From Candidatus Methanoperedentaceae archaeon (lineage in GTDB: Archaea > Halobacteriota > Methanosarcinia > Methanosarcinales > Methanoperedenaceae), in assembly GCA_003104905.1 (NCBI GenBank), contig PQAS01000042.1:1-64000 (forward strand): a stretch of 64,000 nucleotides of DNA, given 5' to 3'. The position numbers and the translations under genes were made by a program. The notes under the pieces are model-generated. The model ran no database searches. It was not told the DNA's origin and saw nothing but the letters and a program-made list of their open reading frames with translations. This document shows positions 5,831 through 29,816 of this stretch, piece after piece. Each line of letters opens with the position of its first letter. Positions within the stretch are counted from its first letter, which is position 1.

Positions 5831-8377
5831 TCATACAAGGTCAACTTTTTCCGTGCCGCCATCGAGCACCATTCTCTCATTTACAGAAACCTCGCGGGAA
5901 ATATTGCCGGCAGTCAGTGTATATTTTCCAATCGGTTTTGTGTCAAAATTTGTTTCGCCTGATATTGGTCCTTCTGTGGAGTAAGGCACGATCAATTCAA
6001 ATTCGCCATTTGAAACTGTCTTCTGGGAATAGGAATACTCACGTCCCTGGTTTGTCTTTACTTTCAAGGATATCGAAACCGTCGCGTTCTGGGGGGCTTT
6101 TCCTGTGATATGAGCGCCTTTTACATGTTCGAATATCTTCACGTGGCCGGTAGATTCAACAGTAAGGTTCCCGCCATATAATTTATTATATATATCTTTA
6201 TATCCCGCTTCGGTCAATCCACCAACATTAGGATCGCCAGTCGGCACAGGGACTGATTCATGCACCAGCCTGTATGTCTTCAAGCCGTTACCGTCGAACA
6301 GTTGAAGGCGCATCATCATTGCATTGTATCTCTTTGTGTATGGAACGGGCTGATCCCCTTTATTGGTCTTCACCATTGCATAATATCCATCATAAGGGAT
6401 ATCCGCCCATTCAATGACAGCGCTAAATACATGGATATTTATGTAATCATCCGTTATGACATACCTCGCGCCGGGTTTGCCATTCACTCCGATCGCATCA
6501 AGCACTGCGTTTGCTTCATCTTCGGATTGAGCTGATAAAAAGGTGGAAGCTCCAGGCACATGTGTCGATCCTCCGCCTATTCCTGACTGGAAAGGATTTG
6601 CATTCGGGATCCTGTGCGCCCATGCTGTTATCTTGTGACCATAATCCCACCAGCTCATAACTCCATAGGCAGAGTCGGGATAAGAATAATTTTCTCCGGC
6701 GGATGGTTTCTGGTACTTCCCGTAGAAATCAACGCCTGGGTCCGGTGTGTTATACCGCATCCATGTAAGGGATTCATACCAGTAGGTTTCCAGGGATGTT
6801 CCTTGTTTTCCTCTAATTGTTGCAGGTTCGATAAGCGGATATACTAGAAATGCAACCAGGAATAAGGCGGCCAGAAGCGATATAATATGAGTGGCTTTAA
6901 TCATCTTGAAGTCAAGACCATTCGGTTCGGATCTATGCGTTTTTGATGCTTTCTTGATATCTTTCTTTCTATCGGCTCTCGTAATACTCTTTTTTCCGAG
7001 CAATTCATTCCAACCACCTGATTCAAGGATTTTATCTGCGACCGCTATTCCAAAATAAGCGGAAAGTATAGCCACATTTACTGCATAGTAATAAGCAAAC
7101 CTGTTCTGCTGGTTTAATGCCCACAGCATCATAATCGTCCATACAAGAAAAACCGTTTTTTCCTGTCTCTCTTTCTTGAAAACTCCATAGGCTAAAAAAG
7201 CCAGGCCGATGAATGCAAGAACACCATTGATCCCGAAATCACCCTTGAAACTCTCAAAAGTAAAAGGGAAAGGCCATGCCTCTCCGATGGTCAACCCGCC
7301 CTTGGAGCGGGTGAAAAAAGTGAGGGAATTTTTCAGGGTATCAAAAATAGAAGGCATTGCAGCATATATCAAAAGAAGTCCGCCGATTATAACAACCGCT
7401 AAAGATAACGGATAATAATATTTCTCATATCCCTTTTTATTCAATAATATTGATAATACGCTCAACAATGGGAAGAGGATAATCCCGACAGTCAGACCTA
7501 CATAATAAAGGTTCTTTTCCCCCCCGATATCAGGAACTATTATCACGATGATCAGCGGAATCAGGAATATAATAGTACCCAGGACGCCAAGATATTCTGT
7601 TGGCTTATTATGCATATGGTCCACAATATGCTGGACCATTATGTAGATCCCGATAATAAAAGCAAATAGCAGCGCTCCTTTCCATGTGAGGGCATAAAGG
7701 CTCAGGAAAAGACCTGTTAATATGAAATAATATATCGAAGGTTTCAACGCACTCCAATTAAGGGATTTAATGTCAGAAAAAGTAAAGCTGTTTTTACGTG
7801 CGACTTTTACCGATAGGACAAGGAACAGCATCGTGACCGTACTGAGCAAGGTCTCTGCAATATGATGATCTGTGAATCCGAGAAGAGATCTTGAAAGGAA
7901 TTGGCCCGGGATAATGGCAATGATGAAGGCTGAAAGAATACCAATCCGCCTGTCATCAAAAACATTCTTAGCAATATAATATGTCGGGATAACTACAAGA
8001 GCACCAAGAATTGACGGGTAATAAGCGCCCACCGTATATATTGTATCAAATGAGGGGGACCCAAGCCCGGCTATCAGTGCTATTATGGCAAGACTGTATG
8101 TGAAAAACGGCGCCCATGGCATAGCCTGCCCATGGGGGTATAATGTATAGGGGTCAAACCAGAGGAAATCCGGAAAATTATGGACTATCCAATCCACTAT
8201 CCTCATCTGGTAAACACCGTCATCTCCGGAAATAGAGAACACGCCATTTCCAAGAAAAACAGTATCGTGGGGTAGAACAACTCGTATATAGAGGGAGAGG
8301 ATAAATGCCGCAAGGATCGATATAACTACCATCGGATTTTTGATTTTTTCAATTATGTCTTTTAAGTCTGTGGTCAT
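5831..8377 (-). CDS. aglB: AglB oligosaccharyltransferase, copy 1
   Basis: An 848-residue paralogue of copy 2 with the same plan: about 13 membrane helices then a soluble catalytic domain. It keeps the catalytic signatures: DD at 52-53 in loop 1, DHH at 170-172, TIGE at 363-366 in loop 5, QNRF, and WWDYG at 576-580. Most residues match copy 2. Divergence is concentrated in loop 5 (TRSKGGLTIGEAWPFPF here), the linker after KKASKTH, and a stretch just before WWDYG. All catalytic motifs are intact, so neither copy looks like a pseudogene. It is divergent from the glycan locus starting at 8489, which probably makes its donor. Confidence 0.93.
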   Translation of the reverse strand: MTTDLKDIIEKIKNPMVVISILAAFILSLYIRVVLPHDTVFLGNGVFSISGDDGVYQMRIVDWIVHNFPDFLWFDPYTLYPHGQAMPWAPFFTYSLAIIALIAGLGSPSFDTIYTVGAYYPSILGALVVIPTYYIAKNVFDDRRIGILSAFIIAIIPGQFLSRSLLGFTDHHIAETLLSTVTMLFLVLSVKVARKNSFTFSDIKSLNWSALKPSIYYFILTGLFLSLYALTWKGALLFAFIIGIYIMVQHIVDHMHNKPTEYLGVLGTIIFLIPLIIVIIVPDIGGEKNLYYVGLTVGIILFPLLSVLSILLNKKGYEKYYYPLSLAVVIIGGLLLIYAAMPSIFDTLKNSLTFFTRSKGGLTIGEAWPFPFTFESFKGDFGINGVLAFIGLAFLAYGVFKKERQEKTVFLVWTIMMLWALNQQNRFAYYYAVNVAILSAYFGIAVADKILESGGWNELLGKKSITRADRKKDIKKASKTHRSEPNGLDFKMIKATHIISLLAALFLVAFLVYPLIEPATIRGKQGTSLETYWYESLTWMRYNTPDPGVDFYGKYQKPSAGENYSYPDSAYGVMSWWDYGHKITAWAHRIPNANPFQSGIGGGSTHVPGASTFLSAQSEDEANAVLDAIGVNGKPGARYVITDDYINIHVFSAVIEWADIPYDGYYAMVKTNKGDQPVPYTKRYNAMMMRLQLFDGNGLKTYRLVHESVPVPTGDPNVGGLTEAGYKDIYNKLYGGNLTVESTGHVKIFEHVKGAHITGKAPQNATVSISLKVKTNQGREYSYSQKTVSNGEFELIVPYSTEGPISGETNFDTKPIGKYTLTAGNISREVSVNERMVLDGGTEKVDLV

Positions 8378-9323: not shown

Positions 9324-10673
9324 ATGTACAAAAAAGTTTTGCTTATAAATCCACCATTTTACAGATTAATGAACAGTCATTTTAATGGACTATCTCTTGG
9401 TCTATGTTATATGGCCAGCGTTTTGAAGAATGCAGGTTTTCACGTCGGGATATATAATGCAGATTATTTAAATGATACAAAATATATTACTCAAACGGAT
9501 CTGCTTGAAAATTATGAGAATTACAAAGCAATTCTTGGAAATTCGTCTCACCCCATATGGCAGGAAATAAGAAACGTGGTGGAAAAATTTGAACCCGACC
9601 TTGTGGGGATAACAGCATTGACCGGGACATATAAAAGCGCAGAAATGATAGCTGAAATCGTAAAAAATCACGACCCCAAAATAACTACCGTCATCGGAGG
9701 AGTTCATCCCATGATCTTGCCCGATGAGGTTACTAAAAACAAAATGTTCGATTATGTGGTAAGGGGCGAAGGTGAAAACACTTTCCTGGAGATAGCAAGA
9801 GGAGACAAAAAAGAGAATATTATGGGATTAACATACCGGGATGATAATGGTCTCGTTGTCCATAATCCTGAAAGGCCATTTATTAAAGACCTGGATACTA
9901 TTCCTTTCCCGGCAAGGGATCTGTATATCAATGAAACCGAAAGAATGGATTACGGATATATCATGACAGGGAGGGGCTGCCCTTTCCAGTGCACTTATTG
10001 CGCGAGCAAGAAAATATGGAACAGAAAGTCACGGTTTCGGTCTGAACAAAATGTGATTGATGAATTAAAATATGTCCGAAGGACATTTGGCACAAGATCA
10101 TTTTATTTCATTGATGATACCTTTACATTGGATAGGAAACGCGCAAAGAAAATTTGCCAGATGATCATCGATGAGGGTATGGATATTGAATGGATATGCG
10201 ATACCCGCGTTGATACACTCGATGAAGAACTTCTTATTCTTATGAAAAGATCAGGATGCAACCGGGTGAAAATAGGCGTGGAATCAGGCAGCGACCGCAT
10301 CCTGAAAAAGATAAAAAAAGGCATCACCAAAGACCAGATACGCCGTGCGGTTTCATTGATGAGGAAAGTAGGACTCGATTTCACAATATATCTAATGATA
10401 GGTTTTCCAACAGAAACAGATGAAGAAGTGCATGAGACAATCGATTTTGCAAGAGAGCTAAATCCGAAATACTACAGTTTAAGCATCCTTGCGCCATATC
10501 CCGGAACAGAAATATACGACGATGTGATCCAGTCCGGAATAACTCTTCCTAAAGAGCATTGGGAATATTTTTTCCACCAGAGTAAGGATATGATCCTGAC
10601 TTTGAATATTAATAAAAAAACCATAGATGAGTTCTTATCATTAAATGATGATGCAGGGAAGTCGAGAACATGA
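9324..10673 (+). CDS. B12-binding radical SAM protein
   Basis: A 449-residue protein with an N-terminal cobalamin-binding domain (residues about 1-150; LLINPPFY, then IGGVHPMILPDEV and YVVRGEGENTFLEI) and a radical SAM barrel. The [4Fe-4S] cysteines are C219, C223 and C226 in GRGCPFQCTYCAS. Members of this class methylate unactivated carbons or do other radical chemistry on lipids, antibiotics and sugars. The C-terminus is shorter than in many relatives and lacks the usual basic tail. It overlaps the DegT gene downstream by 4 bases (ATGA), so it is co-translated with sugar-modifying enzymes. Confidence 0.85.
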   Translation: MYKKVLLINPPFYRLMNSHFNGLSLGLCYMASVLKNAGFHVGIYNADYLNDTKYITQTDLLENYENYKAILGNSSHPIWQEIRNVVEKFEPDLVGITALTGTYKSAEMIAEIVKNHDPKITTVIGGVHPMILPDEVTKNKMFDYVVRGEGENTFLEIARGDKKENIMGLTYRDDNGLVVHNPERPFIKDLDTIPFPARDLYINETERMDYGYIMTGRGCPFQCTYCASKKIWNRKSRFRSEQNVIDELKYVRRTFGTRSFYFIDDTFTLDRKRAKKICQMIIDEGMDIEWICDTRVDTLDEELLILMKRSGCNRVKIGVESGSDRILKKIKKGITKDQIRRAVSLMRKVGLDFTIYLMIGFPTETDEEVHETIDFARELNPKYYSLSILAPYPGTEIYDDVIQSGITLPKEHWEYFFHQSKDMILTLNINKKTIDEFLSLNDDAGKSRT

Positions 10674-13813: not shown

Positions 13814-14725
13814 TTGAATGTTTTAATAACAGGTGGTCTGGGACAGGTAGGTTCTTATCTGACAGAAGAACTCGCAAAGAAAAAATCCAATAAAATCACA
13901 GTATTGGATAATTTCTCAAGCAAGATAAAGGATTTTAAAGTCCCGGAAGGAGTTGTTATTGAAAAAGGAGATATCCGGGATGACAGGATCGTAAATAAAC
14001 TTGTTTCTGAAAATGAAATAATAATTCATACGGCTGCACAGGTCAGCGTTGTAAATTCAATAGAGAATCCGGTTTATGATGCGGAAAATAATATCCAAGG
14101 AACACTTACTCTCCTTAATGCGGCACGAAAAAGCAATATCAGCAGATTCCTCTATTTTAGTTCAGCCGCAGTTTATGGGTCTCCGCAATATTTGCCAATA
14201 GATGAAAAACATCCTGTCAATCCTATGTCGCCATATGGTTTGAGTAAGCTTACAGGAGAAAAGTATGCAATGATGTTCCATTCTCTTTACAGGATTCCGG
14301 TTGTCTGCCTGCGCCCTTTTAATATATACAGTCCACGGCAGAATCCCGGGAGTCCGTATTCGGGGGTGATAACAAAGTTCTTGGAGCGGGCTAAAGCAGG
14401 AAAACCGCCCATTATTTTCGGAGATGGCAAACAGACCCGTGATTTCGTGAGCGTATATGATGTGGTCGATGTTGTCGCCAGGTGTATCGAAAGTGAGAAT
14501 GCAATAGGAGAAGTGTTTAATGCAGGTACAGGCACAGCGACAAACCTGAACCAGCTTGCTCGATTGTGCAGCAGTATGACGCCTGAATATCAGGGGGCGA
14601 TAATCGGTGATATTCATGATAGTTACGCTGATATTTCCAAAGCTATGAAATTCCTTGAATATAAACCCAAATATTTATTAGAAAAGGGGCTTAAGTCAGG
14701 TATGCAAAACAATGAAACGATTTAA
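13814..14725 (+). CDS. NAD-dependent epimerase (GalE-like)
   Basis: An extended-SDR enzyme of 303 residues. It starts at TTG with GGTGA 6-10 bases upstream, a good archaeal ribosome site; no ATG lies at the right place. Motifs are NVLITGGLGQVGSYL (NAD binding), FSSAAVYG, the Tyr-Lys pair in SPYGLSKLTGE, and LRPFNIYSPRQNPGSPYSGV, typical of UDP-sugar 4-epimerases. It overlaps the PseB-like gene by 14 bases, and probably supplies or modifies UDP-HexNAc for the pathway. The exact substrate is inferred. Confidence 0.85.
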   Translation: MNVLITGGLGQVGSYLTEELAKKKSNKITVLDNFSSKIKDFKVPEGVVIEKGDIRDDRIVNKLVSENEIIIHTAAQVSVVNSIENPVYDAENNIQGTLTLLNAARKSNISRFLYFSSAAVYGSPQYLPIDEKHPVNPMSPYGLSKLTGEKYAMMFHSLYRIPVVCLRPFNIYSPRQNPGSPYSGVITKFLERAKAGKPPIIFGDGKQTRDFVSVYDVVDVVARCIESENAIGEVFNAGTGTATNLNQLARLCSSMTPEYQGAIIGDIHDSYADISKAMKFLEYKPKYLLEKGLKSGMQNNETI

Positions 14726-15764
14726 AAATAAAAAAATACTTATTACCGGGGGAACAGGTTCACTCGGTAAAGAACTTGTATATTCTCTTCTGAGAAATGA
14801 AGAACCCAAAATAATACGAATATATGATGTCGATGAAACCGAACAGTTCAATTTTCTACAAGAACTGAAGCATGATTTCAGGAATGATCCAAAACATTAT
14901 GAAGATACCGTAAGATTTCTTCTGGGAGATGTAAGGGATAAGGAGCGCCTGAATCGAGCCGTCGAAGGTATAGATATAATTATCCATACAGCTGCATTGA
15001 AACATGTTGGAGCATGCGAATATAATCCTTTTGAGGCCGTAAAGACCAATGTACTTGGCACGCAGAATATCATCGATGTGGCGATAGATAATAATGTTGG
15101 TAAAATAATATTTACAAGCAGCGATAAAGCAGTAAATCCATCCAATACCATGGGTGCGACAAAACTTCTGGCAGAAAAACTCATGACTGCGGCAAATTAT
15201 TATAAAGGCGACCGGAAATGCATATTCTCCAGCGTTCGTTTTGGGAATGTCATGGGCTCTCGCGGCTCAGTAATTCCTTTATTCACCCAACAAATAAAAA
15301 CAAAAAACCCTGTAACAATCACCGAACCGACCATGACACGTTTTATGATGTCGATGTCTCAGGCTGTGGATCTTGTTTTTGAATCAGTTGAAATGACACA
15401 GGGAGGAGAGGTATTTATTTTCAAAATGCCTGTTGTAAACATATTGGATCTGGCAGAAGTATTGATAGAAGGATTAGCTCCAAAATATGGTCATCGCGTT
15501 GAAGATATCAGAATTAATACAATAGGAACAAAGCCCGGAGAGAAAATGTATGAAGAGTTGATGACTGAAGATGAAGCAGCAAGATCTCTTGAACGGGAAG
15601 ATATGTTTATCATCCCTCCTGAGATGCGTGAGGAATTGCCAGATTGGGACGAATCAAAGTATAATGCGACTTCTATCAAGTCAAAGGATTTTATCTCAAA
15701 AGATGTTCTTCCTATAACAAAAGAACAGATCAAATCAATTTTGAGAAATGATGGAATTATTTAA
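14712..15764 (+). CDS. UDP-GlcNAc 4,6-dehydratase (PseB/CapD-like)
   Basis: A 350-residue soluble dehydratase of the PseB/FlaA1/CapD group. It is expected to act on UDP-GlcNAc to give a 4-keto-6-deoxy sugar, the first step to pseudaminic acid and other deoxyamino sugars. Motifs are ILITGGTGSLGKEL, AALKHV and SSDKAVNPSNTMGATK. The usual catalytic Tyr is Met in the last motif, as in the CapD/WbpM type rather than PseB proper. RFGNVMGSRGSVIPLF and TRFMMSMSQAVDL fit the family. There are no membrane helices, unlike long WbpM. It lies at the start of the nonulosonate module. Confidence 0.85.
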   Translation: MKRFKNKKILITGGTGSLGKELVYSLLRNEEPKIIRIYDVDETEQFNFLQELKHDFRNDPKHYEDTVRFLLGDVRDKERLNRAVEGIDIIIHTAALKHVGACEYNPFEAVKTNVLGTQNIIDVAIDNNVGKIIFTSSDKAVNPSNTMGATKLLAEKLMTAANYYKGDRKCIFSSVRFGNVMGSRGSVIPLFTQQIKTKNPVTITEPTMTRFMMSMSQAVDLVFESVEMTQGGEVFIFKMPVVNILDLAEVLIEGLAPKYGHRVEDIRINTIGTKPGEKMYEELMTEDEAARSLEREDMFIIPPEMREELPDWDESKYNATSIKSKDFISKDVLPITKEQIKSILRNDGII

Positions 15765-15774
15765 ATGGTGAAAT

Positions 15775-16719
15775 ATGAATATTCTTGTAACAGGCGGCGC
15801 TGGTTTTATAGGACGATGGGTAGTAAAACAATTGCTTGAACATGGGGAAAAAGTTCGTGTGCTGGATGACATATCAAATGGACTTCCGGGTAATCTTCAT
15901 GAATTCAGTAATAATCCGGATTTTGAACTGACGATAGGAGATATAAAGAACGTTGATGTATTATCTCAATTATTTGAAAATATTGATGTCTGCATACATT
16001 TGGCTGCAAGTATCATTGTCCAGGATAGCATAGATAATCCCAGGAAAACTTTTGAGAATGATGTCATAGGTACTTTCAATGTGCTTGAAGAGGCCCGAAA
16101 AAACAATACCAAATTAGTGTTCATGAGCACATGCATGGTGTATGATTCTGCATCCGCAAATGGTGCGATTTCTGAAATCCACCCCACGAAAGCCGCATCT
16201 CCTTATGCAGGGGCAAAGCTGGCTGGAGAAAATATGGTGCAATCCTATTATCATGCCTATGGTCTGCCTGTTGTGATACTTCGTCCTTTTAATACATATG
16301 GGCCTTATCAGAAATCAACCGGAGAAGGAGGAGTCGTTTCCATATTCATCCAAAATGAACTGCATGAAGATACACTGAATATATATGGAAACGGAACCCA
16401 GACGCGCGACCTCATGTATGTGGAAGATTGCGCTGATTTCGTGGTAAAAGCTGCATATTCCGATAAAGTGAGCGGTGAGATCCTGAATGCCGGATTTGGG
16501 CAGGATATCACTATAAATGAGCTTGCTGTGATGATATGTAAGGATCAAAAGCGAATAAAGCACATCAGGCATATACATCCACAGAGCGAAATACCAAAGT
16601 TGTTATGCAATAACCAGAAGGTCAAGAGATTGTTAGGATGGGAGCCATCAACTTCTCTTAAAGAGGGGATTATCAAAACGAAAAAATGGATTGAAGGGAA
16701 AGAATTAAAAGGAAGATAA
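15775..16719 (+). CDS. NAD-dependent sugar epimerase
   Basis: An extended-SDR enzyme of 314 residues with MNILVTGGAGFIGRWV, LAASIIVQDSIDNP, the Tyr-Lys pair in SPYAGAKLAGE, and LRPFNTYGPYQKSTGEGGV. The stretch around MSTCMVYDS replaces the usual SSxxVYG. The substrate is unknown. It sits between the PseB-like dehydratase and the PseC-like aminotransferase, so it may act on UDP-HexNAc or the keto intermediate; canonical pseudaminate synthesis uses no separate epimerase here. Confidence 0.83.
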   Translation: MNILVTGGAGFIGRWVVKQLLEHGEKVRVLDDISNGLPGNLHEFSNNPDFELTIGDIKNVDVLSQLFENIDVCIHLAASIIVQDSIDNPRKTFENDVIGTFNVLEEARKNNTKLVFMSTCMVYDSASANGAISEIHPTKAASPYAGAKLAGENMVQSYYHAYGLPVVILRPFNTYGPYQKSTGEGGVVSIFIQNELHEDTLNIYGNGTQTRDLMYVEDCADFVVKAAYSDKVSGEILNAGFGQDITINELAVMICKDQKRIKHIRHIHPQSEIPKLLCNNQKVKRLLGWEPSTSLKEGIIKTKKWIEGKELKGR

Positions 16720-17853
16720 ATGGATTTCATACCTTATGGTTTGCAGTGGATCGATGAAGAAGACATCGATGAAGTTGTCAGGGTCTTGAAAAGTGACTGG
16801 ATCACCACAGGTCCAAAGATTAAGGAATTTGAAGACGCATTGAGTTATTATATAGGATGCAGATATTGTGCTGCCGTCAACAGCGGAACAAGCGCTCTTG
16901 ATATTGCGGTTCAATCACTTGATTTGCCGCAAGGAAGTGAAATCATCACAACGCCTTTTACTTTTGTGGCTACTTCTAATGCCATAATCTATAATGGTCA
17001 TAAGCCGATTTTTGTGGATATTTGCAGTGATACGTTTAATATTAATTCCGATGAGATCAGAAAAAAAATCACACCAAGGACAAAAGCCATAATCTATGTG
17101 GATTTTGCAGGACATCCATGTGATATTAAAGAAATAAAAGAAATTGCCAGGGAGTATGATCTTTATTTGATCGAGGATGCCTGTCATGCAATTGGAGCGG
17201 AATATGATCATGAAAAAGTGGGAAATTTTGCAGATCTTACAATCTTCAGTTTTCACCCTGTGAAGCACATAACCACAGGCGAAGGCGGTGCTGTGGCAAC
17301 GAATAATGAAGAGTTATATGAGAAAATGTTGCTTCTTAGAAGCCACGGGATTGATAAAAATGCATTCGATAGATATGGTCCAGATGCTTCATGGGCATAT
17401 GATATGAAATATCTTGGACGAAACTACAGAATGACAGACTTCCAGGCAGCTCTTGGGATATCGCAATTGAAGAAACTGGATTTCTTCATCAAGAAACGAA
17501 TGGAACTGGTATCGATGTATAATGAATTAATTGGCGATATTGAATTTATCAGACTTCCTTGTGTGAAAAATAATGTCAGGCATGCATGGCATATCTATAC
17601 TGTCCTTCTTGAAGGATCAATCGACAGGGATGAATTCTTTAAGCATATGAGAACTTCAGGTATAGGTGTAAATGTGCATTACATACCGGCATATAGACAT
17701 AGCTATTATATCCGGAACTTTGATATTAATAGAGATGATTATCCTGTGGCAGAGGATGTCTTCAGCAGAATAATCACCCTGCCATTGTATTCAAGAATGG
17801 GGAATGACAAATTAGAGTATGTATGCAATAGTATTAAAAAATATAAAAAATGA
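16720..17853 (+). CDS. PseC-like UDP-4-amino-sugar aminotransferase
   Basis: A 377-residue DegT-family PLP enzyme. The context and the motif SFHPVKHITTGEGGAV (K182 binds PLP) closely fit PseC, which aminates C4 of the keto sugar made by PseB. NSGTSALDIAVQSL, TPFTFVATSNAI and LIEDACHAIGA are also present. The start follows the previous stop codon directly. It overlaps the aldo/keto reductase by 4 bases (ATGA). Perosamine-type activity cannot be excluded from sequence alone, but the pseH- and pseI-like genes nearby favour PseC. Confidence 0.83.
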   Translation: MDFIPYGLQWIDEEDIDEVVRVLKSDWITTGPKIKEFEDALSYYIGCRYCAAVNSGTSALDIAVQSLDLPQGSEIITTPFTFVATSNAIIYNGHKPIFVDICSDTFNINSDEIRKKITPRTKAIIYVDFAGHPCDIKEIKEIAREYDLYLIEDACHAIGAEYDHEKVGNFADLTIFSFHPVKHITTGEGGAVATNNEELYEKMLLLRSHGIDKNAFDRYGPDASWAYDMKYLGRNYRMTDFQAALGISQLKKLDFFIKKRMELVSMYNELIGDIEFIRLPCVKNNVRHAWHIYTVLLEGSIDRDEFFKHMRTSGIGVNVHYIPAYRHSYYIRNFDINRDDYPVAEDVFSRIITLPLYSRMGNDKLEYVCNSIKKYKK

Positions 17854-18731
17854 CCTTAAATAATAGACTCGTGCTTGGAACCGCGCAATTCGGATTGGAC
17901 TATGGTATCAATAATAAAAGAGGGAAAATACCCAAGAGAGAAGTTTTTGACATCCTGAATATAGCACTGGATTTTGGGATCAATACGCTTGATACTGCGT
18001 ATGCATATGGGGAAAGCGAAGATGTGGTCGGGGACTTTATAAAAGAAACGGGAAAAGAATTTAAGATAGTTTCAAAATCCCCAAATTGTGAAGCCTGTGA
18101 ATTGGAAAGGTCACTTGATTTCACCCTATCAAAACTTGGAGCTACATCATTGTACGGGTATATGATCCACACCTTTTCGCATTATATGAAGAAACCTGAA
18201 ATATGGAATATCCTGGAAGATTTAAAGTCAACAGGAAAGATAGAAAAAATAGGATTTTCACTTTATTATCCTGAAGAACTCGATTATATCAATAGAAATA
18301 AATTAAAAATAGATATTATTCAGGTACCTTATAGCATTTTTGACCAGAGATTCTCACAATTATTCAGGAAACTTAAAAAAGATGGCGTAGAAATATATAT
18401 TAGATCAGTTTTTCTTCAGGGATTGGTTTTTAAGAAATCCCATGATCTTGACAGCTTTTTTTTAAAAATAAAAGATAAATTGATGGCACTGGATCAGGTC
18501 TCAGAAAGATCGAATATTCCCGTTGCAGCATTATGTCTTAATTTTGCTTTTCTCACAGAATATATTGACAAGATCGTCGTAGGCGTTGACAGTGTAAACA
18601 ATCTTAATGAAATTATTATGTCATTAAAATATATTCCAGAAGTGGAAAAGATATTTTCTGAACTCGCCTCTTTAAGAGAAGACGACGAAAATATGATAGT
18701 TCCTACTAATTGGAAGGTGTCTGCAAAATGA
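17850..18731 (+). CDS. Aldo/keto reductase
   Basis: A 293-residue NAD(P)H-dependent reductase with the AKR barrel signatures: LGTAQFGLDYGI, the catalytic Asp and Tyr in TLDTAYAYGESEDVV, a Lys in VSKSPNC, and a His in YGYMIHTFSHY. The C-terminal cofactor site (VVGVDSVNNLNEI) is present. It is coupled to pseC- and spsF-like genes by ATGA overlaps. AKRs next to SpsF-like genes also occur in bacterial surface-sugar clusters (general knowledge). The substrate is probably an oxidised sugar of this pathway and is not established. Confidence 0.85.
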   Translation: MTLNNRLVLGTAQFGLDYGINNKRGKIPKREVFDILNIALDFGINTLDTAYAYGESEDVVGDFIKETGKEFKIVSKSPNCEACELERSLDFTLSKLGATSLYGYMIHTFSHYMKKPEIWNILEDLKSTGKIEKIGFSLYYPEELDYINRNKLKIDIIQVPYSIFDQRFSQLFRKLKKDGVEIYIRSVFLQGLVFKKSHDLDSFFLKIKDKLMALDQVSERSNIPVAALCLNFAFLTEYIDKIVVGVDSVNNLNEIIMSLKYIPEVEKIFSELASLREDDENMIVPTNWKVSAK

Positions 18732-19507
18732 GGATAATCGCTATCATTCAGGCAAGACTTGGTTCAACAAGATTGTCCGGAAAAGTCCTGCTAGATCTTA
18801 AGGGCAAAACAGTGCTGGAACAGGTAATTGATCGAGTAAGAGCTTCACGATTTATTGATGATGTTATAATTGCCACCACAATCATCAAGGAAGACCTTAA
18901 AATCGTTAAACTCTGTGCTGATCATGGAATAAGAGTTTATTGCGGTTCTGAAAATGATGTGCTTGAAAGATATTATGAAACAGCAAGACTTTTTGGAGCC
19001 GACCATATCGTAAGAATAACATCAGATTGCCCGATGATCGATCCTTCGATAATTGACGATGTTATAGACTTGCATCTGAAGGAGAAAGCAGATTATACCA
19101 GCAATACATTGAAGGAAACATATCCGGATGGTCAGGATGTTGAAATATTTACCTTTATGTCATTGAAGAATGCCTGGAAAAATGCAAAATTGACCTCAGA
19201 GCGTGAACATGTAACTCCCTATATCAGGAATAATCCTGAATTTAAGCTTGTTAATATGGAATGTGGAGAAGATATGTCCAATAAAAGATGGACACTGGAT
19301 AATTCCGAGGATTATGAGTTCATTAAGATAATATTTGAAAATCTGTATGATAAGAATCCACTTTTTAGCATGGAAGAAATAGTTAAGTTAATAAATGAAA
19401 AGCCTGAGATAGAAAGAATAAATGAAAATATAGATAGAAATGAAGGTTATAAGAAATCATTGAGAGAAGATAGACTTTTAAATTCAGATAACATTCAGGA
19501 GAAATGA
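18728..19507 (+). CDS. SpsF-like cytidylyltransferase
   Basis: A 259-residue nucleotidyltransferase of the SpsF/NeuA fold, expected to activate a nonulosonic acid as CMP-sugar. The ATG at 18728 overlaps the previous stop (ATGA) and has GGAAGG at good spacing, so it is preferred over a TTG 18 bases upstream. The N-terminus reads IIAIIQARLGSTRLSGKVL, then RITSDCPMIDP. After residue about 230 the tail is charged. A second CMP-sugar synthetase-like gene lies at 29057, so the two may serve different acids. Confidence 0.85.
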   Translation: MRIIAIIQARLGSTRLSGKVLLDLKGKTVLEQVIDRVRASRFIDDVIIATTIIKEDLKIVKLCADHGIRVYCGSENDVLERYYETARLFGADHIVRITSDCPMIDPSIIDDVIDLHLKEKADYTSNTLKETYPDGQDVEIFTFMSLKNAWKNAKLTSEREHVTPYIRNNPEFKLVNMECGEDMSNKRWTLDNSEDYEFIKIIFENLYDKNPLFSMEEIVKLINEKPEIERINENIDRNEGYKKSLREDRLLNSDNIQEK

Positions 19508-19508
19508 A

Positions 19509-20819
19509 ATGGGAAGATCGCAGGAGCTTTACAGGAAAGCCAGGAAAATAATTCCCGGAGGAACACAGCTTTTATCAAAAAGGCCAGAGATGTTCCTCCC
19601 TGGACTCTGGCCTGCATATTACGACAGGGCAAAGGGTTGCGAAGTATGGGATCTTGATGGGAAAAAATACATCGATATGAGCACAATGGGGGTTGGTTCC
19701 TGTATCCTTGGGTATGCCGATGATGATGTAAATAAAGCTGTCAAATCTGCTGTTGACAGGGGCAGTATGTGCACATTGAATGCGCCTGAAGAAGTAGAGC
19801 TTGCAGAGCTTCTACTTGAACTTCATCCATGGGCGGAAATGGTGAGATATGCAAGAACAGGAGGCGAATCTATGATGATCGCGGTAAGAATAGCAAGGGC
19901 AAAATCCGGAAAAGATACTGTGCTCTTTTGCGGCTACCACGGCTGGCATGACTGGTATCTCTCATCAAATCTTTCCGATGAGAAGTCACTGGACGGGCAT
20001 TTGCTGCCTGGATTGAATCCTCTTGGTGTGCCCAGGGCCTTGAAAGGTTTGACATATCCATTTAATTACAACGATACAGAAGGTTTCTTGAGACTTGTGG
20101 AAGAACATAAAGGCAATATTGGAGTTGTGGTAATGGAGCCTATAAGGAATCTTGAACCGGATATGGATTTTATTAAGACCATAAGGCAGGTAACAAATGA
20201 TCTGGGAATAGTCTTGATCGTGGATGAAATCACAGCAGGCTTTAGATTGAATAATGGGGGAGCGCATCTGCTTTATGATCTGGAACCGGATATGGCAGTT
20301 TTTGCAAAGGGTATGAGCAATGGATTTCCCATGGCTGCGATAATAGGTAAGAGCGATGTTATGGAAGTTGCACAGGATACCTTCATAAGCAGTACATATT
20401 GGACAGATAGAGTTGGACCAACTGCTGCTCTGGCAACGATATGGAATATAAAGGAAAAGAATGTATCCGGACACTTAATCAGAACAGGGAAAAAAATGAA
20501 AGAATCCTGGAAATCGCTAGCTTCCAGTCATGATCTTAATATTGAAGTTTCCGGAATAGATCCCCTCGGGCATTTTGATTTCAAATATGAGAATCCATTG
20601 GTTTTAAAAACATTGTTCACTCAATTGATGCTGGACAAAGGTTTTCTTGCTTCAACGGCTTTTTATGCTTCGTTTGCCCATAAAGAAGCGCATTTAAAAA
20701 ACTATTTGAAGGCTGCTGATGAAGCATTTGGATTCATATCAAAATCAATTGCAGAAGGAAAAACAGAAAGATATTTAAAAGGACCAGTCTGTCATTCAGG
20801 ATTCAAGAGATTGACATGA
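19509..20819 (+). CDS. Class III aminotransferase (GSA-aminomutase-like)
   Basis: A 436-residue PLP enzyme resembling glutamate-1-semialdehyde 2,1-aminomutase. The PLP lysine is K267 in FAKGMSNGFPM, and the Asp lies in LIVDEITAGFR. GGTQLLSKRPEMFLPG and YARTGGESMMIAVRIARA replace the more usual heme-pathway sequences. The location inside the nonulosonate module, between spsF-like and pseH-like genes, suggests it aminates a carbonyl of a sugar or nonulosonate rather than making heme. It could explain an extra amino group, perhaps with the aldo/keto reductase. This role is inferred. Confidence 0.82.
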   Translation: MGRSQELYRKARKIIPGGTQLLSKRPEMFLPGLWPAYYDRAKGCEVWDLDGKKYIDMSTMGVGSCILGYADDDVNKAVKSAVDRGSMCTLNAPEEVELAELLLELHPWAEMVRYARTGGESMMIAVRIARAKSGKDTVLFCGYHGWHDWYLSSNLSDEKSLDGHLLPGLNPLGVPRALKGLTYPFNYNDTEGFLRLVEEHKGNIGVVVMEPIRNLEPDMDFIKTIRQVTNDLGIVLIVDEITAGFRLNNGGAHLLYDLEPDMAVFAKGMSNGFPMAAIIGKSDVMEVAQDTFISSTYWTDRVGPTAALATIWNIKEKNVSGHLIRTGKKMKESWKSLASSHDLNIEVSGIDPLGHFDFKYENPLVLKTLFTQLMLDKGFLASTAFYASFAHKEAHLKNYLKAADEAFGFISKSIAEGKTERYLKGPVCHSGFKRLT

Positions 20820-20841
20820 TTTTCAACTGGATATTCAGACC

Positions 20842-21375
20842 ATGAACGTGGAAACAATAGACCTGAAAAAAAATATTGAATTAAAATATGCTGAACTTAT
20901 TAACTTTATCAATCTTAATGATGACGAAAAGGAAATGATCAGGAACTGGAGAAATCATGAAAATGTTAGAAATATGATGTATTCAGATCATATCATAACG
21001 ATTGAAGAGCATTCTAAATTTATAGCAGGATTAAGAAATGATATCAAGAATTCTTTTTGGATAGTAAGAAGGAATCGAGAAAACATAGGTGTTATTTCAT
21101 TGAACAGAGTGGATTTAAAGAATTCCAATGCTTATATAGGTATATATACAAATCCTTATTTATCTGGAATGGGCGGACTGCTTATTGAGTGCCTTAAAAA
21201 GTTAGCGTTTGATAAGGTAAAATTGCATACACTAAAACTTGAAGTGATTGAAGAAAATGAAAGGGCAATACATTTTTATAAAAAGGCAGGATTTGAAGAA
21301 GAAGGACGGCTCAGAGAATTCGTTTTCAAGACTGGCAAATGGCTTGATGTGATCGTAATGGGAATTTTAGGATAA
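20842..21375 (+). CDS. PseH-like GNAT N-acetyltransferase
   Basis: A 177-residue GNAT protein. PseH acetylates the 4-amino group of the PseC product using acetyl-CoA. The pattern RNWRNHENVRNMMYSDHIIT followed by EEHSKFI is characteristic of PseH-type enzymes. The acetyl-CoA site is in the C-terminal half (YLSGMGGLLIECLKKLAF, then NERAIHFYKKAGFEEEGRLRE). It lies directly upstream of the pseI-like gene. Confidence 0.85.
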   Translation: MNVETIDLKKNIELKYAELINFINLNDDEKEMIRNWRNHENVRNMMYSDHIITIEEHSKFIAGLRNDIKNSFWIVRRNRENIGVISLNRVDLKNSNAYIGIYTNPYLSGMGGLLIECLKKLAFDKVKLHTLKLEVIEENERAIHFYKKAGFEEEGRLREFVFKTGKWLDVIVMGILG

Positions 21376-21395
21376 TATACGATGTTATAATTAAT

Positions 21396-22448
21396 ATGAA
21401 ACTAGAAATAGGAAACAGGTACATTGGAAATGATAATCCGGTTTTCATAATCGCAGAGCTTTCAGCAAATCATCTCCAGGATTTTGACCTTGCAGCAAAA
21501 ACCATTACAGCCATGAAAGAGGCAGGAGCGGATGCTGTTAAGCTTCAAACCTATACACCGGATACATTAACAATCGACTGCGACAATGAATATTTCCGGA
21601 TAAAACAGGGAACACTCTGGAATGGCAGAACGCTCTACCAGTTATATAAGGAAGCTTACACACCCTGGGAATGGCAGCCAGAATTGAAAAAATTTGCAGA
21701 GGACCTTGGACTTATCTTTTTCTCATCCCCTTTTGATAAAACTTCGGTTGACTTTCTTGAAAGAATGAATGTTCCAGCTTATAAGGTGGCCTCTTTTGAG
21801 ATTACGGACATACCGCTCATTGAATATATAGCATCCAGGGGAAAACCAGTGATAATCTCTACGGGAATTGCGACATTATCGGATATAGAAGAAGCTGTGA
21901 ATGCCTGCAAAAGAGCGGGTAATAATCAGATAGCTCTCTTAAAATGCACATCCGAATATCCAGCTTTATTGGAAGATGTTAACGTGAGGACAATTCCAAA
22001 CTTAAAGGAAACTTTTAATGTTGTCGTTGGTCTATCCGACCATACATTAGGTATTGAAGTACCATTAGCTGCAGTGAGTCTTGGGGCAAGGATCATAGAA
22101 AAACATTTTACTATCGACAGAGAGCTTGGAGGCCCTGATTCAGCATTTTCATTAGAACCAGCAGAGTTTAGGGAAATGGTAACATCGATACGAAATGTGG
22201 AAAAGGCGCTCGGAGAGATCAAATATGAACTCAGTGATAGAATTGTGAAATCCAGGGATTTCTCGCGATCTTTGTTTGTTGTAACGGATATGAAAGCAGA
22301 AGATATATTTACCGAAATAAATATAAAATCTATCAGACCGGGTTTTGGACTTCATCCCAAATATCTAAGAAAAATTATGGGAAAAAAAGCAATAGTTGAT
22401 ATCAAAAAAGGAACGCCTTTGGATTGGAATTTAATAAAATGGATTTGA
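21396..22448 (+). CDS. pseI: Pseudaminic acid synthase-like (NeuB family)
   Basis: A 350-residue enzyme that condenses a 6-carbon 2,4-diamino sugar with phosphoenolpyruvate to form a nonulosonic acid. The NeuB barrel has FIIAELSANH, DAVKLQTYTPDTLTID, FFSSPFDKTSVDFLE, AYKVASFEITDIPLI, KCTSEYPA, GLSDHTLG and EKHFTIDR. The C-terminal 60 residues form an antifreeze-like SAF domain (SRSLFVVTDMKAEDIF, then SIRPGFGLHPKYL). YKEAYTPWEWQPELKKFA fits PseI better than NeuB. It expects a free sugar, so a hydrolase to remove UDP is required, but no PseG is visible nearby. Confidence 0.88.
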   Translation: MKLEIGNRYIGNDNPVFIIAELSANHLQDFDLAAKTITAMKEAGADAVKLQTYTPDTLTIDCDNEYFRIKQGTLWNGRTLYQLYKEAYTPWEWQPELKKFAEDLGLIFFSSPFDKTSVDFLERMNVPAYKVASFEITDIPLIEYIASRGKPVIISTGIATLSDIEEAVNACKRAGNNQIALLKCTSEYPALLEDVNVRTIPNLKETFNVVVGLSDHTLGIEVPLAAVSLGARIIEKHFTIDRELGGPDSAFSLEPAEFREMVTSIRNVEKALGEIKYELSDRIVKSRDFSRSLFVVTDMKAEDIFTEINIKSIRPGFGLHPKYLRKIMGKKAIVDIKKGTPLDWNLIKWI

Positions 22449-23206
22449 AATTCGGTCTGAAACTGTGGTCGATCAATACAGATTTAATCGATGAGGCTAT
22501 TGCGCTTATCGATGAGAAAATCTTTTATTACATAGAATTATTTGTTATACCAGAAACTGATGTCTTTCCATTCTTATTTGATGTACCATATATCATTCAT
22601 ATCCCGCATCATAAATTCAAAGTTAATATTGGTGATTCCAGTTTAAAAGAATATAATTTGCACAAAATAGATGAATCCATAGAGTGGGCTGATAAACTTA
22701 ATGCAAAATTCCTTATACTGCATTCGGGGCATGGTTCTATGAAAGATGCAAAAGATATTTTGTATGAAATTGATGATAAACGAATTTTGATAGAAAATAT
22801 GCCTAAAGTAGGTCTTGATAATGAAGATATGATCGGGTATTCACCAGGACAAATAGAAGAACTGCTCGATATCAGGGATTTTGGTATGTGTTTGGATTTT
22901 GGGCATGCAGTGAAAGCGGCGTTGAGTCTTGGGGTAGATTATAAGGAGTTTGTTCAGGAATTCATGAAACTTGAACCGAGGGTGTTTCATATAAGTGACG
23001 GTAAGTTGAACTACGAGAAGGATGAGCATCTCGGAATTGGGTTTGGAGAGTATGATATTGATTTCTTTATGAGGTCTGTTAAGAGGAGACATCATAATAT
23101 GGTGACGGTGGAGACGCCGAGGGCAACACAAAAGTCTCTGGCTGAGGATGTTGAAAACGTTGAAAAAATATATGACATGACCAAACAAAGTTTCAAGGGG
23201 GATTAG
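22439..23206 (+). CDS. Sugar isomerase/epimerase-like TIM-barrel protein
   Basis: A 255-residue protein from the ATG at 22439, which overlaps the end of pseI by 10 bases; a TTG 15 bases upstream is the alternative. It resembles xylose isomerase-like TIM barrels (AP_endonuc_2 family): LILHSGHGS, RILIENMPKV, FGMCLDFGHA, VFHISDG and MVTVETPR carry the likely metal ligands (Glu, His, Asp). The role is unknown. It lies between pseI and a glycosyltransferase, so a part in nonulosonate formation is possible. Confidence 0.75.
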   Translation: MDLKFGLKLWSINTDLIDEAIALIDEKIFYYIELFVIPETDVFPFLFDVPYIIHIPHHKFKVNIGDSSLKEYNLHKIDESIEWADKLNAKFLILHSGHGSMKDAKDILYEIDDKRILIENMPKVGLDNEDMIGYSPGQIEELLDIRDFGMCLDFGHAVKAALSLGVDYKEFVQEFMKLEPRVFHISDGKLNYEKDEHLGIGFGEYDIDFFMRSVKRRHHNMVTVETPRATQKSLAEDVENVEKIYDMTKQSFKGD

Positions 23207-23207
23207 A

Positions 23208-25043
23208 ATGAAATTATACCTTCTGGAGGCATTTCATCCTAATATGCAATTTGACGATGGGGTCATTGTTGCATTAACTCCAGAAGTTTGTTATCATCTT
23301 GATAAAAACGGAATTAACTACAGCATAATTGAAGACCATTATGATGAACATGAATTATTGATAAATCGTTATGAATTTTTGGAAGATCAAAATGATTGGT
23401 TTATAGATTTTGATAATTTTCTGAAGTATAATATTAATATACTAAATATATATGAACTAAATTTAGCAAGTATATACTCGTTGCACTTGAAAAATATATT
23501 AGATACACTGATTCTTAAATCTTATATATTAAAAAAATTATTTGAAAAATTTAATCCTTCAAGTGTCATCTTTGTAGCATTACCTCCTAAGAAAGAATTG
23601 ATAAACAATGATTTGGGATATCACGATAAAAGTGTATATGCACATTTAATTCCAATTTTATGTAAAGAAAAATCAATTCCTATTGTTGAACATTATGGAT
23701 ATTCTGCACAAAATACAAAGATTGTGGCAGCAAATAATATCGATAAGGTCGCTAATATTTGGAGATATATACCAATTATTTTCAAAATGGTTTTCAGTAT
23801 TTTTAAAACAAAAAACAAAAAAAATGCATTGAATGTTTTGCAGATGAGCCTTGCATATAATGGTTTTGCTCTCCTGAAAAATGCCTTCATCAGAGGTCAC
23901 AACGTATATTTATTGGCAGGTAATAAGATATTAAAATTTCATCATTTTGGATTTAAAACATTTGATATTAAACATAGTAATGATAATATTGAAAATATGC
24001 TTTCTGACTGGAGCCAAACGGCTCAATTATTGGAAACACATGAATTGATAAAATGGATAAATGAAAAATGCTCTTTTGATGTTAGTAATATTGTTTTGCC
24101 AAATCTAAAACATTTTGTTTCAAAAATTTGTCCTGATTTATTTCAATATTATAAAACTTTCCTTGCATTTTATGAATCCGAATCAATAGATGTTGTTGTC
24201 TCACCTTATAATAATCAAAGTACAGTCGGGCTTGCAGGAATAGCAGCAGCAAACAAATGCGAACATACAAAGACAATATGTGTTGAACACGGTGATGATA
24301 TTTTCATAAATTTTTTTTGGAGGCGCAAAGAGTTAATTAATTTTGATATTTTAATTGTATCTGAAAACGAGAATAAAAGATTTTTGGAATCTATCTGTTA
24401 TAAATATAACTTCGGGATAAAAATATATAGCAATCTTGAAAGAATGTCACCAAATATCGAAATCGCTAAAAACAGGAAAACAAGAAGATTTAATAGTAAT
24501 GGCAATAAAACGGAAATAATTTATCTGCCAACCTTTTTCAATTGGGACCTTCTACGGATAGATGTTGATATACATCTATCTCCAACTCGATATTACAAAT
24601 TCCAAAAATTATTATTAGAATATTTTTCTGAAAGAAAGGATTTTACATTTATTTGGAAAGCTTTATTCAGCTCTGATTCGCTATATAATCCAATCCCAGA
24701 CCTCATAAAAGACAAAAATATCAAGAATGTTAGAGTGGAATCAAAATCATTTAATAAATATCTTCGTTATGCATATAAAGTAATTTTAGATTATCCCAGC
24801 ACAGGAATGTACGAATCTGTTATTGCTGGAGTTCCAACCATGTGCCTGTGCTCTGATGCACTGCATGTGAGAAAGAGTGCAATTGAAGTTTTCAAAAATA
24901 TTGTTAAAATTTACCTTAATCCTGATGAAGCGATCGCCCACATAGACGAATTTATTAATGCTGACTCTGAACAATACAAAATGTCCATAAAAACATGTGA
25001 CCCGAATTTGATTGATATAATTGAATTTGAATGTAGAAACTAA
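23208..25043 (+). CDS. Putative GT-B glycosyltransferase, AT-rich
   Basis: A 611-residue soluble protein not assigned to a numbered family. The C-terminal half resembles capsule-type and CDP-glycerol-phosphotransferase-like GT-B proteins: KTICVEHGDD, IIYLPTFFNWDL, FTFIWKALF, and a nucleotide-site-like LDYPSTGMYESVIAGVPTMC. The N-terminal half is rich in Leu, Ile and Asn. The gene is visibly more AT-rich than its neighbours, which suggests separate origin. Start and stop fit tightly between the isomerase and the flippase. It is a good candidate for transferring the nonulosonate. Confidence 0.6.
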   Translation: MKLYLLEAFHPNMQFDDGVIVALTPEVCYHLDKNGINYSIIEDHYDEHELLINRYEFLEDQNDWFIDFDNFLKYNINILNIYELNLASIYSLHLKNILDTLILKSYILKKLFEKFNPSSVIFVALPPKKELINNDLGYHDKSVYAHLIPILCKEKSIPIVEHYGYSAQNTKIVAANNIDKVANIWRYIPIIFKMVFSIFKTKNKKNALNVLQMSLAYNGFALLKNAFIRGHNVYLLAGNKILKFHHFGFKTFDIKHSNDNIENMLSDWSQTAQLLETHELIKWINEKCSFDVSNIVLPNLKHFVSKICPDLFQYYKTFLAFYESESIDVVVSPYNNQSTVGLAGIAAANKCEHTKTICVEHGDDIFINFFWRRKELINFDILIVSENENKRFLESICYKYNFGIKIYSNLERMSPNIEIAKNRKTRRFNSNGNKTEIIYLPTFFNWDLLRIDVDIHLSPTRYYKFQKLLLEYFSERKDFTFIWKALFSSDSLYNPIPDLIKDKNIKNVRVESKSFNKYLRYAYKVILDYPSTGMYESVIAGVPTMCLCSDALHVRKSAIEVFKNIVKIYLNPDEAIAHIDEFINADSEQYKMSIKTCDPNLIDIIEFECRN

Positions 25044-26561: not shown

Positions 26562-27530
26562 ATGATTGAAGTCAATGCAAATTTTCATACATTGAGTGGA
26601 AATATTATGAATAGAAAAGACGATACCTTTAGAGAGTATCGCAAGAAATGGGAAGACTGGCCTAAGAATTTCCATACCGGCGATTTCCCGCTCCACCTGG
26701 ATATCGAAGCATCAAGTGTATGCAACCTGCGATGCGAATTTTGTGAGACCAACTATGATAAAATCGGAACCAAATATGGCTATATGGGTTTTGACCTATT
26801 TAAAAAGATTATTGACGAAGGCGCAGGCCTCGGACTTTATGCGATCAAATTGAATTCGGGGGCAAGAGGAGAGCCGCTGCTTCATAAAAATATTGTAGAG
26901 ATGGTTGAATATGCAAAACAAAAAGGCATAATAGATGTCTATATGAATACAAACGCTGCTCTCCTGACCAAAGAATTAGGGAGAAGGTTGATCGAAGCTG
27001 GACTGGATAGGATTTCAATTTCGTTTGAGGGAACAAAGGCTGAAATTTATGAGAAGAACAGGATTGGTGCAAAATTTGAAAAAGTTCGCAGGAATATCAT
27101 CGAATTTATAGAATTGAGAAATAGTTTAAATCCAGAGATGCCCAAGATCAGGATACAAACAGTAGCTACACCTGAAATCTTGCCAACGATAAAAGAATAT
27201 GGAGAATATTGGAGTAAACTCGTTGATGAAGTTGCATTCATAGATTTCAAAGATTATTCTAATAAAAAGAAAGATCTGGTTTCAGACTGGATATGTCCTT
27301 ATCTATGGCAGAGGATGATGATAACTTGGGATGGAAACATATCAGTATGTGGATTTGATTATACAGACAACCATAGACTCGAAAATGTGAAAAAAGACTC
27401 AATACAAAAAGCATGGAAAGGAAAAGAGATGGAACGCATACGTAAGCTTCATAGAGAAGGAAAGTCCCATATGATAGCTATATGCAATGGATGCCCTTTC
27501 AGGACAACAGAAATATTGAAAAGAAAATGA
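26562..27530 (+). CDS. Radical SAM/SPASM-type protein
   Basis: A 322-residue radical SAM protein. The [4Fe-4S] motif is CNLRCEFC (EASSVCNLRCEFCETNY, residues about 48-64). A SPASM-like C-terminus binds extra clusters: WICPYLWQRMMITWDGNISVCGFDY, then ICNGCPF. ATGs at 26562 and 26607 are both possible; I used the first. SPASM proteins often mature peptides, but in glycan clusters some act on sugars or aglycones. No precursor-peptide gene is visible next to it. The next gene, another radical SAM, follows after 4 bases. Confidence 0.83.
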   Translation: MIEVNANFHTLSGNIMNRKDDTFREYRKKWEDWPKNFHTGDFPLHLDIEASSVCNLRCEFCETNYDKIGTKYGYMGFDLFKKIIDEGAGLGLYAIKLNSGARGEPLLHKNIVEMVEYAKQKGIIDVYMNTNAALLTKELGRRLIEAGLDRISISFEGTKAEIYEKNRIGAKFEKVRRNIIEFIELRNSLNPEMPKIRIQTVATPEILPTIKEYGEYWSKLVDEVAFIDFKDYSNKKKDLVSDWICPYLWQRMMITWDGNISVCGFDYTDNHRLENVKKDSIQKAWKGKEMERIRKLHREGKSHMIAICNGCPFRTTEILKRK

Positions 27531-27534
27531 AACT

Positions 27535-29025
27535 ATGTCCAACAAATTCAAAATATTGCTTGTATATCCAAATCTTCAGATGATCAATTTATTGCCAAGC
27601 AATATATCCATTCTCGCGGCCTGCCTTAAACAAAAAGGATTTGATGTAGAACTTTTTGACACTACATTCTATAAAATTGAAGAAAAAAGTGTTGACGAAA
27701 AAAGAGTTGAAATATTACAATTAAGACCATTCAACCTCTCTAGATATGGCATTCAATACAAAGATACCGATGTATATGATGATTTCCGCAAAAAAGTGGA
27801 AAGTTATAAGCCCGATCTCATAGCACCTACAATTGTAGATGATACATTAGATCTGACAATTAATTTATTAAAGACTATACATGACCTTGAAATTCCGGTT
27901 TGTGCTGGCGGCGTGCATACTATTTTTGCCCCTGAATCAAGTCTATCGCATGATGAAATTGATTATGTTTGCTGGGGAGAAGGGGAAGAAGCATTGCCGG
28001 AATTGTGCCAGCATCTGAAAGAAGGCGCATCTGTAGAGAAAATCCAGAATATATGGTCTAAATCAAATGGAAAAATCTTACGAAAAGGAATGAGAGGACT
28101 TGTTGATCTGGATAAGTTGCCTTATAACGATTTTTCTTTATTTGAAGAAAAACGGTTTTTCAGGCCAATGCAGGGAAAGGTGTATAGAATGGTACCCGTA
28201 GAAATAGATAGGGGTTGCCCTTATAGCTGCAAATTTTGCGCCGCACCTTACCTCAGGAAGTTATACAAAAAAGAAACAGGATGTAATTATTACAGAATGA
28301 AATCTCCGGATAGGGTCATTAATGAAATTAAACATTATATTGACAAATATAATGCAGAGTATATATATTTTAATTCCGAAACATTCCTGGCCATGAGCGA
28401 AGAAAAATTTGATTATTTTGCCCGGGAATATATTTCCGAAATTCATATTCCTTTCTGGTGCCAATCCAGGGTGGAGACTATATCAGATTTTAAAATCAGC
28501 AGACTGGCACAGATGGGATGTGACAGGATTTCTATAGGACTTGAACATGGGAACGAAGAATTCAGGAAGAAAATATTAAACAAAACATTTACAAATGTGC
28601 AGGCTATTGATGCTTTTAAAACAATTAGAAAATATTCAATTCCCATAACGGTCAATAATATGATTGGTTTTCCGGATGAAACACGTGAAATGGTTTTTGA
28701 TACAATAAATTTAAATCGGGAATTATATGCGGATAGCATTAATGCTTATATTTTTGTCCCCTACCATGGAACTGAACTAAGAGAGATAGCTTTGAAAAAG
28801 GGCTATTTAAAAAAGGATACAAGAACTCATTCACTCATTAATCCAACTCTTGATATGCCACAATTATCCCGGAAGTCCATTGAAGGTCTATTAAGGACAT
28901 TCCCTTTATACGTTAAAATGCCTAAAAATATGTATGATGAAATCAGGATTGCTGAGCATTTCACAGAAGAGGGTAATGCTGTAATTGCACAATTAGCAAT
29001 AGAATATGCGAAGAAGTATTGGTGA
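27535..29025 (+). CDS. B12-binding radical SAM protein
   Basis: A 496-residue protein with an N-terminal cobalamin-binding region (ILLVYPNLQMINLLPSNISI, then CAGGVHTIFAPES and YVCWGEGEEALPEL) and a radical SAM domain with cysteines in DRGCPYSCKFCAAPY. The middle YFNSETFLAMSEEKF and RISIGLEHGNEEFRKKIL are typical. The target is unknown. It sits just downstream of a SPASM radical SAM gene and upstream of a CMP-sugar synthetase-like gene. Confidence 0.85.
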   Translation: MSNKFKILLVYPNLQMINLLPSNISILAACLKQKGFDVELFDTTFYKIEEKSVDEKRVEILQLRPFNLSRYGIQYKDTDVYDDFRKKVESYKPDLIAPTIVDDTLDLTINLLKTIHDLEIPVCAGGVHTIFAPESSLSHDEIDYVCWGEGEEALPELCQHLKEGASVEKIQNIWSKSNGKILRKGMRGLVDLDKLPYNDFSLFEEKRFFRPMQGKVYRMVPVEIDRGCPYSCKFCAAPYLRKLYKKETGCNYYRMKSPDRVINEIKHYIDKYNAEYIYFNSETFLAMSEEKFDYFAREYISEIHIPFWCQSRVETISDFKISRLAQMGCDRISIGLEHGNEEFRKKILNKTFTNVQAIDAFKTIRKYSIPITVNNMIGFPDETREMVFDTINLNRELYADSINAYIFVPYHGTELREIALKKGYLKKDTRTHSLINPTLDMPQLSRKSIEGLLRTFPLYVKMPKNMYDEIRIAEHFTEEGNAVIAQLAIEYAKKYW

Positions 29026-29812: not shown

Positions 29813-29816
29813 TCTC

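Follow-up and report, generated by a model that had tools for sequence, protein, structure and literature searches.

We examined a 64,000-nucleotide stretch of the genome of a Candidatus Methanoperedentaceae archaeon (contig PQAS01000042.1, positions 1 to 64,000; hereafter the window), which carries a nonulosonate biosynthesis cluster at 14712-23206. The last gene of this cluster, at 22439-23206, encodes a triosephosphate isomerase (TIM) barrel protein that, judging from its genomic context, probably is a UDP-sugar hydrolase, non-homologous to PseG and acting as its substitute; we hold the chemistry proposed below with less confidence. This proposal draws on the lack of PseG in the genomes that carry the barrel, its nonulosonate neighbours, its exchange with PseG in one slot of the gene order, and its scatter over the PseI tree. 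An earlier note on this DNA had suggested that another gene of the cluster replaces the hydrolase, which is probably right, with the barrel as the candidate. That note did list a ‘sugar-isomerase-like barrel’, but mentioned it last and favored an aldo/keto reductase (AKR) and a class III aminotransferase; the alternation of the barrel with PseG across genomes bears out its place among the candidates and reverses that ranking.

The cluster consists of nine genes confirmed on the + strand, which overlap or lie no more than ~30 bases apart, in the following order.

14712 to 15764, + strand: UDP-N-acetylglucosamine (UDP-GlcNAc) dehydratase with a Met-type active site, predicted first step (Polysacc_synt_2, 349 bits)
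15775 to 16719, + strand: Pal-like short-chain dehydrogenase/reductase (SDR), the ‘extra epimerase’ of the earlier note (418 bits to 6bwl)
16720 to 17853, + strand: PseC aminotransferase (TIGR03588, 451 bits, cut-off 423.5)
17850 to 18731, + strand: AKR of the accessory unit, overlapping pseC and spsF (PF00248)
18728 to 19507, + strand: SpsF-type cytidylyltransferase, probable CMP-nonulosonate synthetase (PF02348)
19509 to 20819, + strand: class III aminotransferase of a branch distinct from HemL (PF00202)
20842 to 21375, + strand: PseH N-acetyltransferase (TIGR03585, 167 bits, cut-off 93)
21396 to 22448, + strand: PseI synthase (TIGR03586, 505 bits, cut-off 340)
22439 to 23206, + strand: TIM barrel of the endonuclease IV superfamily, proposed PseG substitute (PF01261)

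Families were called for PseB, PseC, PseH, PseI, PseF, PseG, HemL and CbiR with NCBIfam profiles and their curated cut-offs. PseC, PseH and PseI all exceed these cut-offs, which are at equivalog level, supporting the pseudaminic-type pathway that had been proposed, and the closest solved chain to PseI is a pseudaminic acid synthase (8h2c). The contiguity of Pse-like genes with a CMP-transferase also holds for the layout and for these three genes, but not for the supposed PseB, which scores 340 bits against a cut-off of 408 (TIGR03589). The SpsF-type protein reaches only 24 bits with the PseF model (TIGR03584, cut-off 206) and is not PseF. From these sequence assignments, the best explanation of the cluster is that it would make a CMP-activated pseudaminic-type nonulosonate. 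With the canonical PseB-C-H-G-I-F pathway of Campylobacter and Helicobacter it has in common PseC, PseH, PseI and the logic of starting from UDP-GlcNAc, whereas its first step is not PseB, its core has no PseF-type synthetase, and the barrel protein stands where PseG is missing.

The PseG profile (TIGR03590) gave 0 matches across the entire genome (2.9 Mb, 98.5% complete, 59 contigs), extending to the genome the absence that had been noticed in the window; as a control, the search gave matches in 5 of 14 control genomes. A PseG-like motif was likewise sought in all six reading frames of the window and not found. Relatives often have PseG, or PseG fused to an acetyltransferase, as the next gene after the class III aminotransferase. 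We searched for the barrel in 345 genomes of the archaeon's own phylum, 247 of the phylum of a Mailhella genome, 249 of a third phylum (that of G303) and 74 of the Termititenax phylum. Among these ~900 genomes of four phyla, 16 (4, 3, 0 and 9 in the same order) carry strong members, in 17 copies; the search of G303's phylum, which found none in 249 genomes, had no positive control, and a search of plasmids found none. The family is sharply bimodal, with 8 of 43 genomes at E < 1e-106 and the next best match at 4e-27. All 17 copies adjoin nonulosonate genes, most of them with PseB, PseC and PseI. PseG was found in 0 of 8 barrel-positive genomes of the first set (one 26-bit noise match) and in 0 of 8 of the second (best match 32 bits); these matches, none above 32 bits, are to C-terminal fragments such as are also found in genomes without the barrel. 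The PseG-like motif was absent from 15 of 16 barrel loci, and its sole match looks like chance.

In two phyla, 42 genomes have PseI: none of the 7 that carry the barrel has PseG, against 26 of the 35 barrel-less ones (Fisher p = 4e-4, a value inflated because the genomes are related). Taken alone, the phylum of G325 gives p = 0.009; in the Termititenax phylum, counted over genomes irrespective of PseI, the association has p = 0.33. In the PseI tree, the barrel label needs nine changes, at least four of them on supported branches; barrel-linked rows are scattered among PseG-linked ones, a single-clade constraint is rejected, and no change in the barrel label is matched by one of PseG in that direction. 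The exchange can be read directly from the gene order. The canonical order is pseBCFGHI, and locus L210, with PseB-PseC-PseF-barrel-formyltransferase-PseH...PseI, is a similar order with the barrel in the place of PseG. A Termititenax locus (L051) carries a barrel joined with a GNAT domain between the aminotransferase and PseI, and in the matching slot L145 has PseG joined with GNAT. No aminotransferase was present in the retrieved sequence around eight of the 17 copies (L155, L156, L210-L215), although two of these loci, L212 and L215, are close to contig ends; this implies that the barrel belongs to the core pathway rather than to a decorating unit.

Profile searches of the PDB with the barrel matched endonuclease IV and MJ1311, as did a fold search with its AlphaFold2 model (pLDDT 86; 3aam at 9.5e-11), in which epimerases were also among the near matches. 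For the metal site, we compared, through a profile alignment to endonuclease IV, the positions that we take to be the known metal ligands of that enzyme: the window barrel keeps all nine, eight are invariant in 17 of 17 barrel proteins, and all nine are kept in 15 of 17. The CbiR model (NF041277) gave 30 bits, below its cut-off of 105. The barrel thus shares fold and metal ligands with the endonuclease IV/AP endonuclease 2 superfamily, which includes CbiR (PMC7733943) and MJ1311 (3wqo) and whose members hydrolyse phosphodiesters, but its family has its own Glu33 and Asp187 and sits in nonulosonate loci. Two weaker archaeal matches (L157 and L158) are endonuclease-IV-like barrels outside nonulosonate loci with the same metal ligands, and have Gln and Asn in place of Glu33 and Asp187. 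In the literature, mostly open-access, we found no link of the barrel family to pseudaminate.

Several observations weigh against the barrel being the hydrolase. Its function is only predicted, and the PF01261 superfamily also holds sugar isomerases and epimerases. The ninth metal ligand, equivalent to His69, is Thr in 2 of the 17 proteins, and the synthase adjoining three copies (L215, L217, L218) is only 32-42% identical to PseI. The exclusion of PseG is not significant within the archaeon's own phylum (p = 0.10), and the supported branches of the PseI tree give four independent contrasts (p = 0.125), a number with which a sign test cannot reach 0.05. The Met-type active site of the dehydratase, discussed below, leaves the stereochemistry of the first step ambiguous. 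One genome (G583) has a 39-bit PseG-like stretch beside PseI, showing that divergent forms of PseG exist. Lastly, four related archaea (G061, G135, G187, G261) have PseI but neither PseG nor the barrel, so that either something else fills the step there or the barrel does something else. Their clusters (L192-L195) have GNAT, SDR, ATP-grasp, HAD, PseI and methyltransferase genes in place of PseH-PseI-barrel; this looks like one event because their PseI proteins form one clade, which adjoins the PseI of the window. The HAD hydrolase of these clusters was considered for the step and set aside, as the partners in its module are found as well in L142, a cluster with PseG, and so are not specific. 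Such a recurring unit, ATP-grasp-like and methyltransferase-like genes with a HAD or calcineurin-like phosphoesterase, was seen in nonulosonate clusters L142, L141, L162, L163 and L217, and it occurs with either PseG or the barrel.

The barrel might instead be a sugar isomerase or epimerase acting on the free sugar or an intermediate, in which case the cluster would yield a pseudaminic acid stereoisomer, and hydrolysis would fall to a housekeeping enzyme or to one that has escaped recognition. We consider this unlikely, though it is the strongest of the alternatives: the membership of PF01261 and the near fold matches to epimerases fit it, and the four genomes just described show that another hydrolase can exist, but it fails to explain why in no case were the barrel and PseG found together and why they swap in one slot, and by sequence the barrel matches endonuclease IV and MJ1311 in the PDB. 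It is less probable still that the hydrolase is a GT-B enzyme, whether a diverged PseG or another, which the profile missed or which was lost in assembly gaps, and that the barrel is incidental. The stretch in G583 and the 59 contigs of the archaeon's own assembly leave room for such an enzyme, but G130 and G237, which are single contigs, likewise have no PseG, and the motif searches of the window and of the barrel loci point the same way.

The idea favored earlier, that the AKR and/or the class III aminotransferase replaces the hydrolase step, has as its support that both are in the cluster and PseG is not, and we regard it as very improbable. In a survey of 54 aminotransferase loci with both flanks, from many phyla, PseG lies within 6 kb in 19 and NeuC in 3; the unit therefore sits beside PseG in many clusters and is not its replacement. 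Moreover, neither fold is that of a hydrolase, and several PseG-less barrel clusters are without the aminotransferase. In the same loci, a nonulosonate synthase was found in 40 and the barrel in 3. A cytidylyltransferase is near by in 39, in 13 of them joined to the aminotransferase in a single SpsF-aminotransferase polypeptide (fusions of ~675-700 residues in L093, L094, L100, L108, L110, L145 and L162), and an AKR or a GFO/IDH/MocA-type oxidoreductase in 36; the AKR adjoins SpsF or the aminotransferase in many phyla, and the other oxidoreductase is swapped in elsewhere. The aminotransferase scores 217 bits with the HemL model (TIGR00713), below the cut-off of 527, and a separate HemL-like copy is found elsewhere in the genome (G000:C30). 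Parts of this unit are already in print: a Vibrio Pse cluster with PseG has SpsF fused to an aldo/keto reductase (PMC7371886), and in the Legionella Sg6 O-antigen locus, PseG is accompanied by a ‘glutamate-1-semialdehyde aminomutase’ and a cytidylyltransferase (PMC3694923). Unlike the window, these loci contain PseG, and their reductase and aminotransferase were left without an assigned function. In Bacillus subtilis, SpsF is needed for legionaminic acid (Leg) transfer (PMC7439481). The AKR and the class III aminotransferase are best explained as a separate, optional decorating unit. As a guess, an oxidoreductase together with an aminotransferase would fit hydroxyl amination; it is possible that the aminotransferase adds an extra amino group and that the product is an undescribed nonulosonate.

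The opening of the pathway also differs from PseB. The best solved relative of the dehydratase is 6bwc (334 bits), and Helicobacter pylori PseB (2gn4) scores 246 bits. 6BWC is Pen of Bacillus thuringiensis, as named in a review that gives the Pen active-site motif as [ST]DKxnYx3K (PMC8987622); the crystallised 6bwc protein carries substitutions adjoining this motif. The motif of the window dehydratase, SDKAVNPSNTMGATK, is of the Met type; its Met, found also in non-inverting PglF-type enzymes, takes the position of the Tyr of Pen and PseB. The gene that follows, which had been described as an extra epimerase, is present and closely matches the solved Pal of B. thuringiensis (6bwl; 418 bits, with the next best protein at 151 bits): it is accounted for by the pairing of a Met-type dehydratase with a Pal-like enzyme. 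Orthologues in the same position occur in L141 (72% identity) and L143 (62%), the only loci in which Pal-like neighbours were found, both beside a Met-type dehydratase; in four Leg-type clusters (L055, L067, L068, L144) the dehydratase is of the Met type and Pal was not detected. This Tyr/Met typing is partial, covering about half of the homologues. Pen and Pal jointly fulfil the role of PseB (PMC7439481), and the window resembles this route (PMC8987622, PMC7439481) in its Pen-like dehydratase, clear Pal homologue and PseC, but differs from it in the active-site Met and in having no PseG-type hydrolase, a role for which the barrel is proposed. From these sequences we infer that the Met-type dehydratase and the Pal-like enzyme replace PseB; the stereochemistry is presumed, with the Pal-like SDR probably completing UDP-4-keto-6-deoxy-N-acetyl-L-altrosamine (UDP-4-keto-6-deoxy-L-AltNAc).

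In the proposed pathway, the dehydratase and its Pal-like partner would convert UDP-GlcNAc to UDP-4-keto-6-deoxy-L-AltNAc, which PseC would aminate and PseH acetylate, as expected from their families. The barrel, in place of PseG, would then hydrolyse the UDP-sugar and free the sugar; by a speculative analogy with endonuclease IV, a metal-activated water might attack the beta-phosphorus, with the sugar O1 as the leaving group and UDP as the other product. PseI would join the sugar with phosphoenolpyruvate, and SpsF would activate the product with CMP. The decorating unit may, as a guess, oxidise a hydroxyl of the nonulosonate and then transaminate it. A bolder and distinctly tentative version is that a new family of metal-dependent UDP-sugar hydrolases, derived from the endonuclease IV fold and cleaving P-O and not, as is reported for PseG, C-O, has taken the place of PseG several times over, among bacteria as well as archaea, and that the nonulosonate of the window is an undescribed one with a third amino group from the reductase/aminotransferase unit.

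Beyond the cluster, the window contains two further genes with weak matches to relevant families.

23208 to 25043, + strand: 611-aa protein, perhaps a glycosyltransferase, outside the proposed mechanism (TIGR04331, LIC12162-transferase, weak at 22 bits)
29057 to 29812, + strand: second PseF/NeuA-like cytidylyltransferase (TIGR03584, 71 bits, below the cut-off of 206; PF02348)

The 611-aa protein was considered as a GT-B hydrolase and rejected, having no relative among the compared loci; a 623-aa protein of similar size at 42617-44488 has a weak surface-carbohydrate match (TIGR04326, LIC13510). The second cytidylyltransferase is followed by an SDR (29057-30563), and a comparable pair is found flanking the class III aminotransferase of two Leg-type clusters, L055 and L144. 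The surface-sugar region also holds B12-binding radical SAM proteins at 9324-10673 and 27535-29025 and a SPASM radical SAM protein at 26562-27530. On the - strand, 3153-8377 holds two AglB-type oligosaccharyltransferase genes, side by side and similar in length, which mark the window as archaeal and suggest that the cluster feeds protein N-glycosylation.

If the barrel is the hydrolase, it would fill a hole in the pathway of PseG-less pseudaminate clusters, add to the UDP-sugar hydrolases a new class with an unexpected fold, and give annotators a single gene by which to recognise such clusters. The pathway appears modular, with PseB, Pen-Pal or a Met-type dehydratase with Pal as its openings and, should our proposal be correct, at least two unrelated hydrolases.

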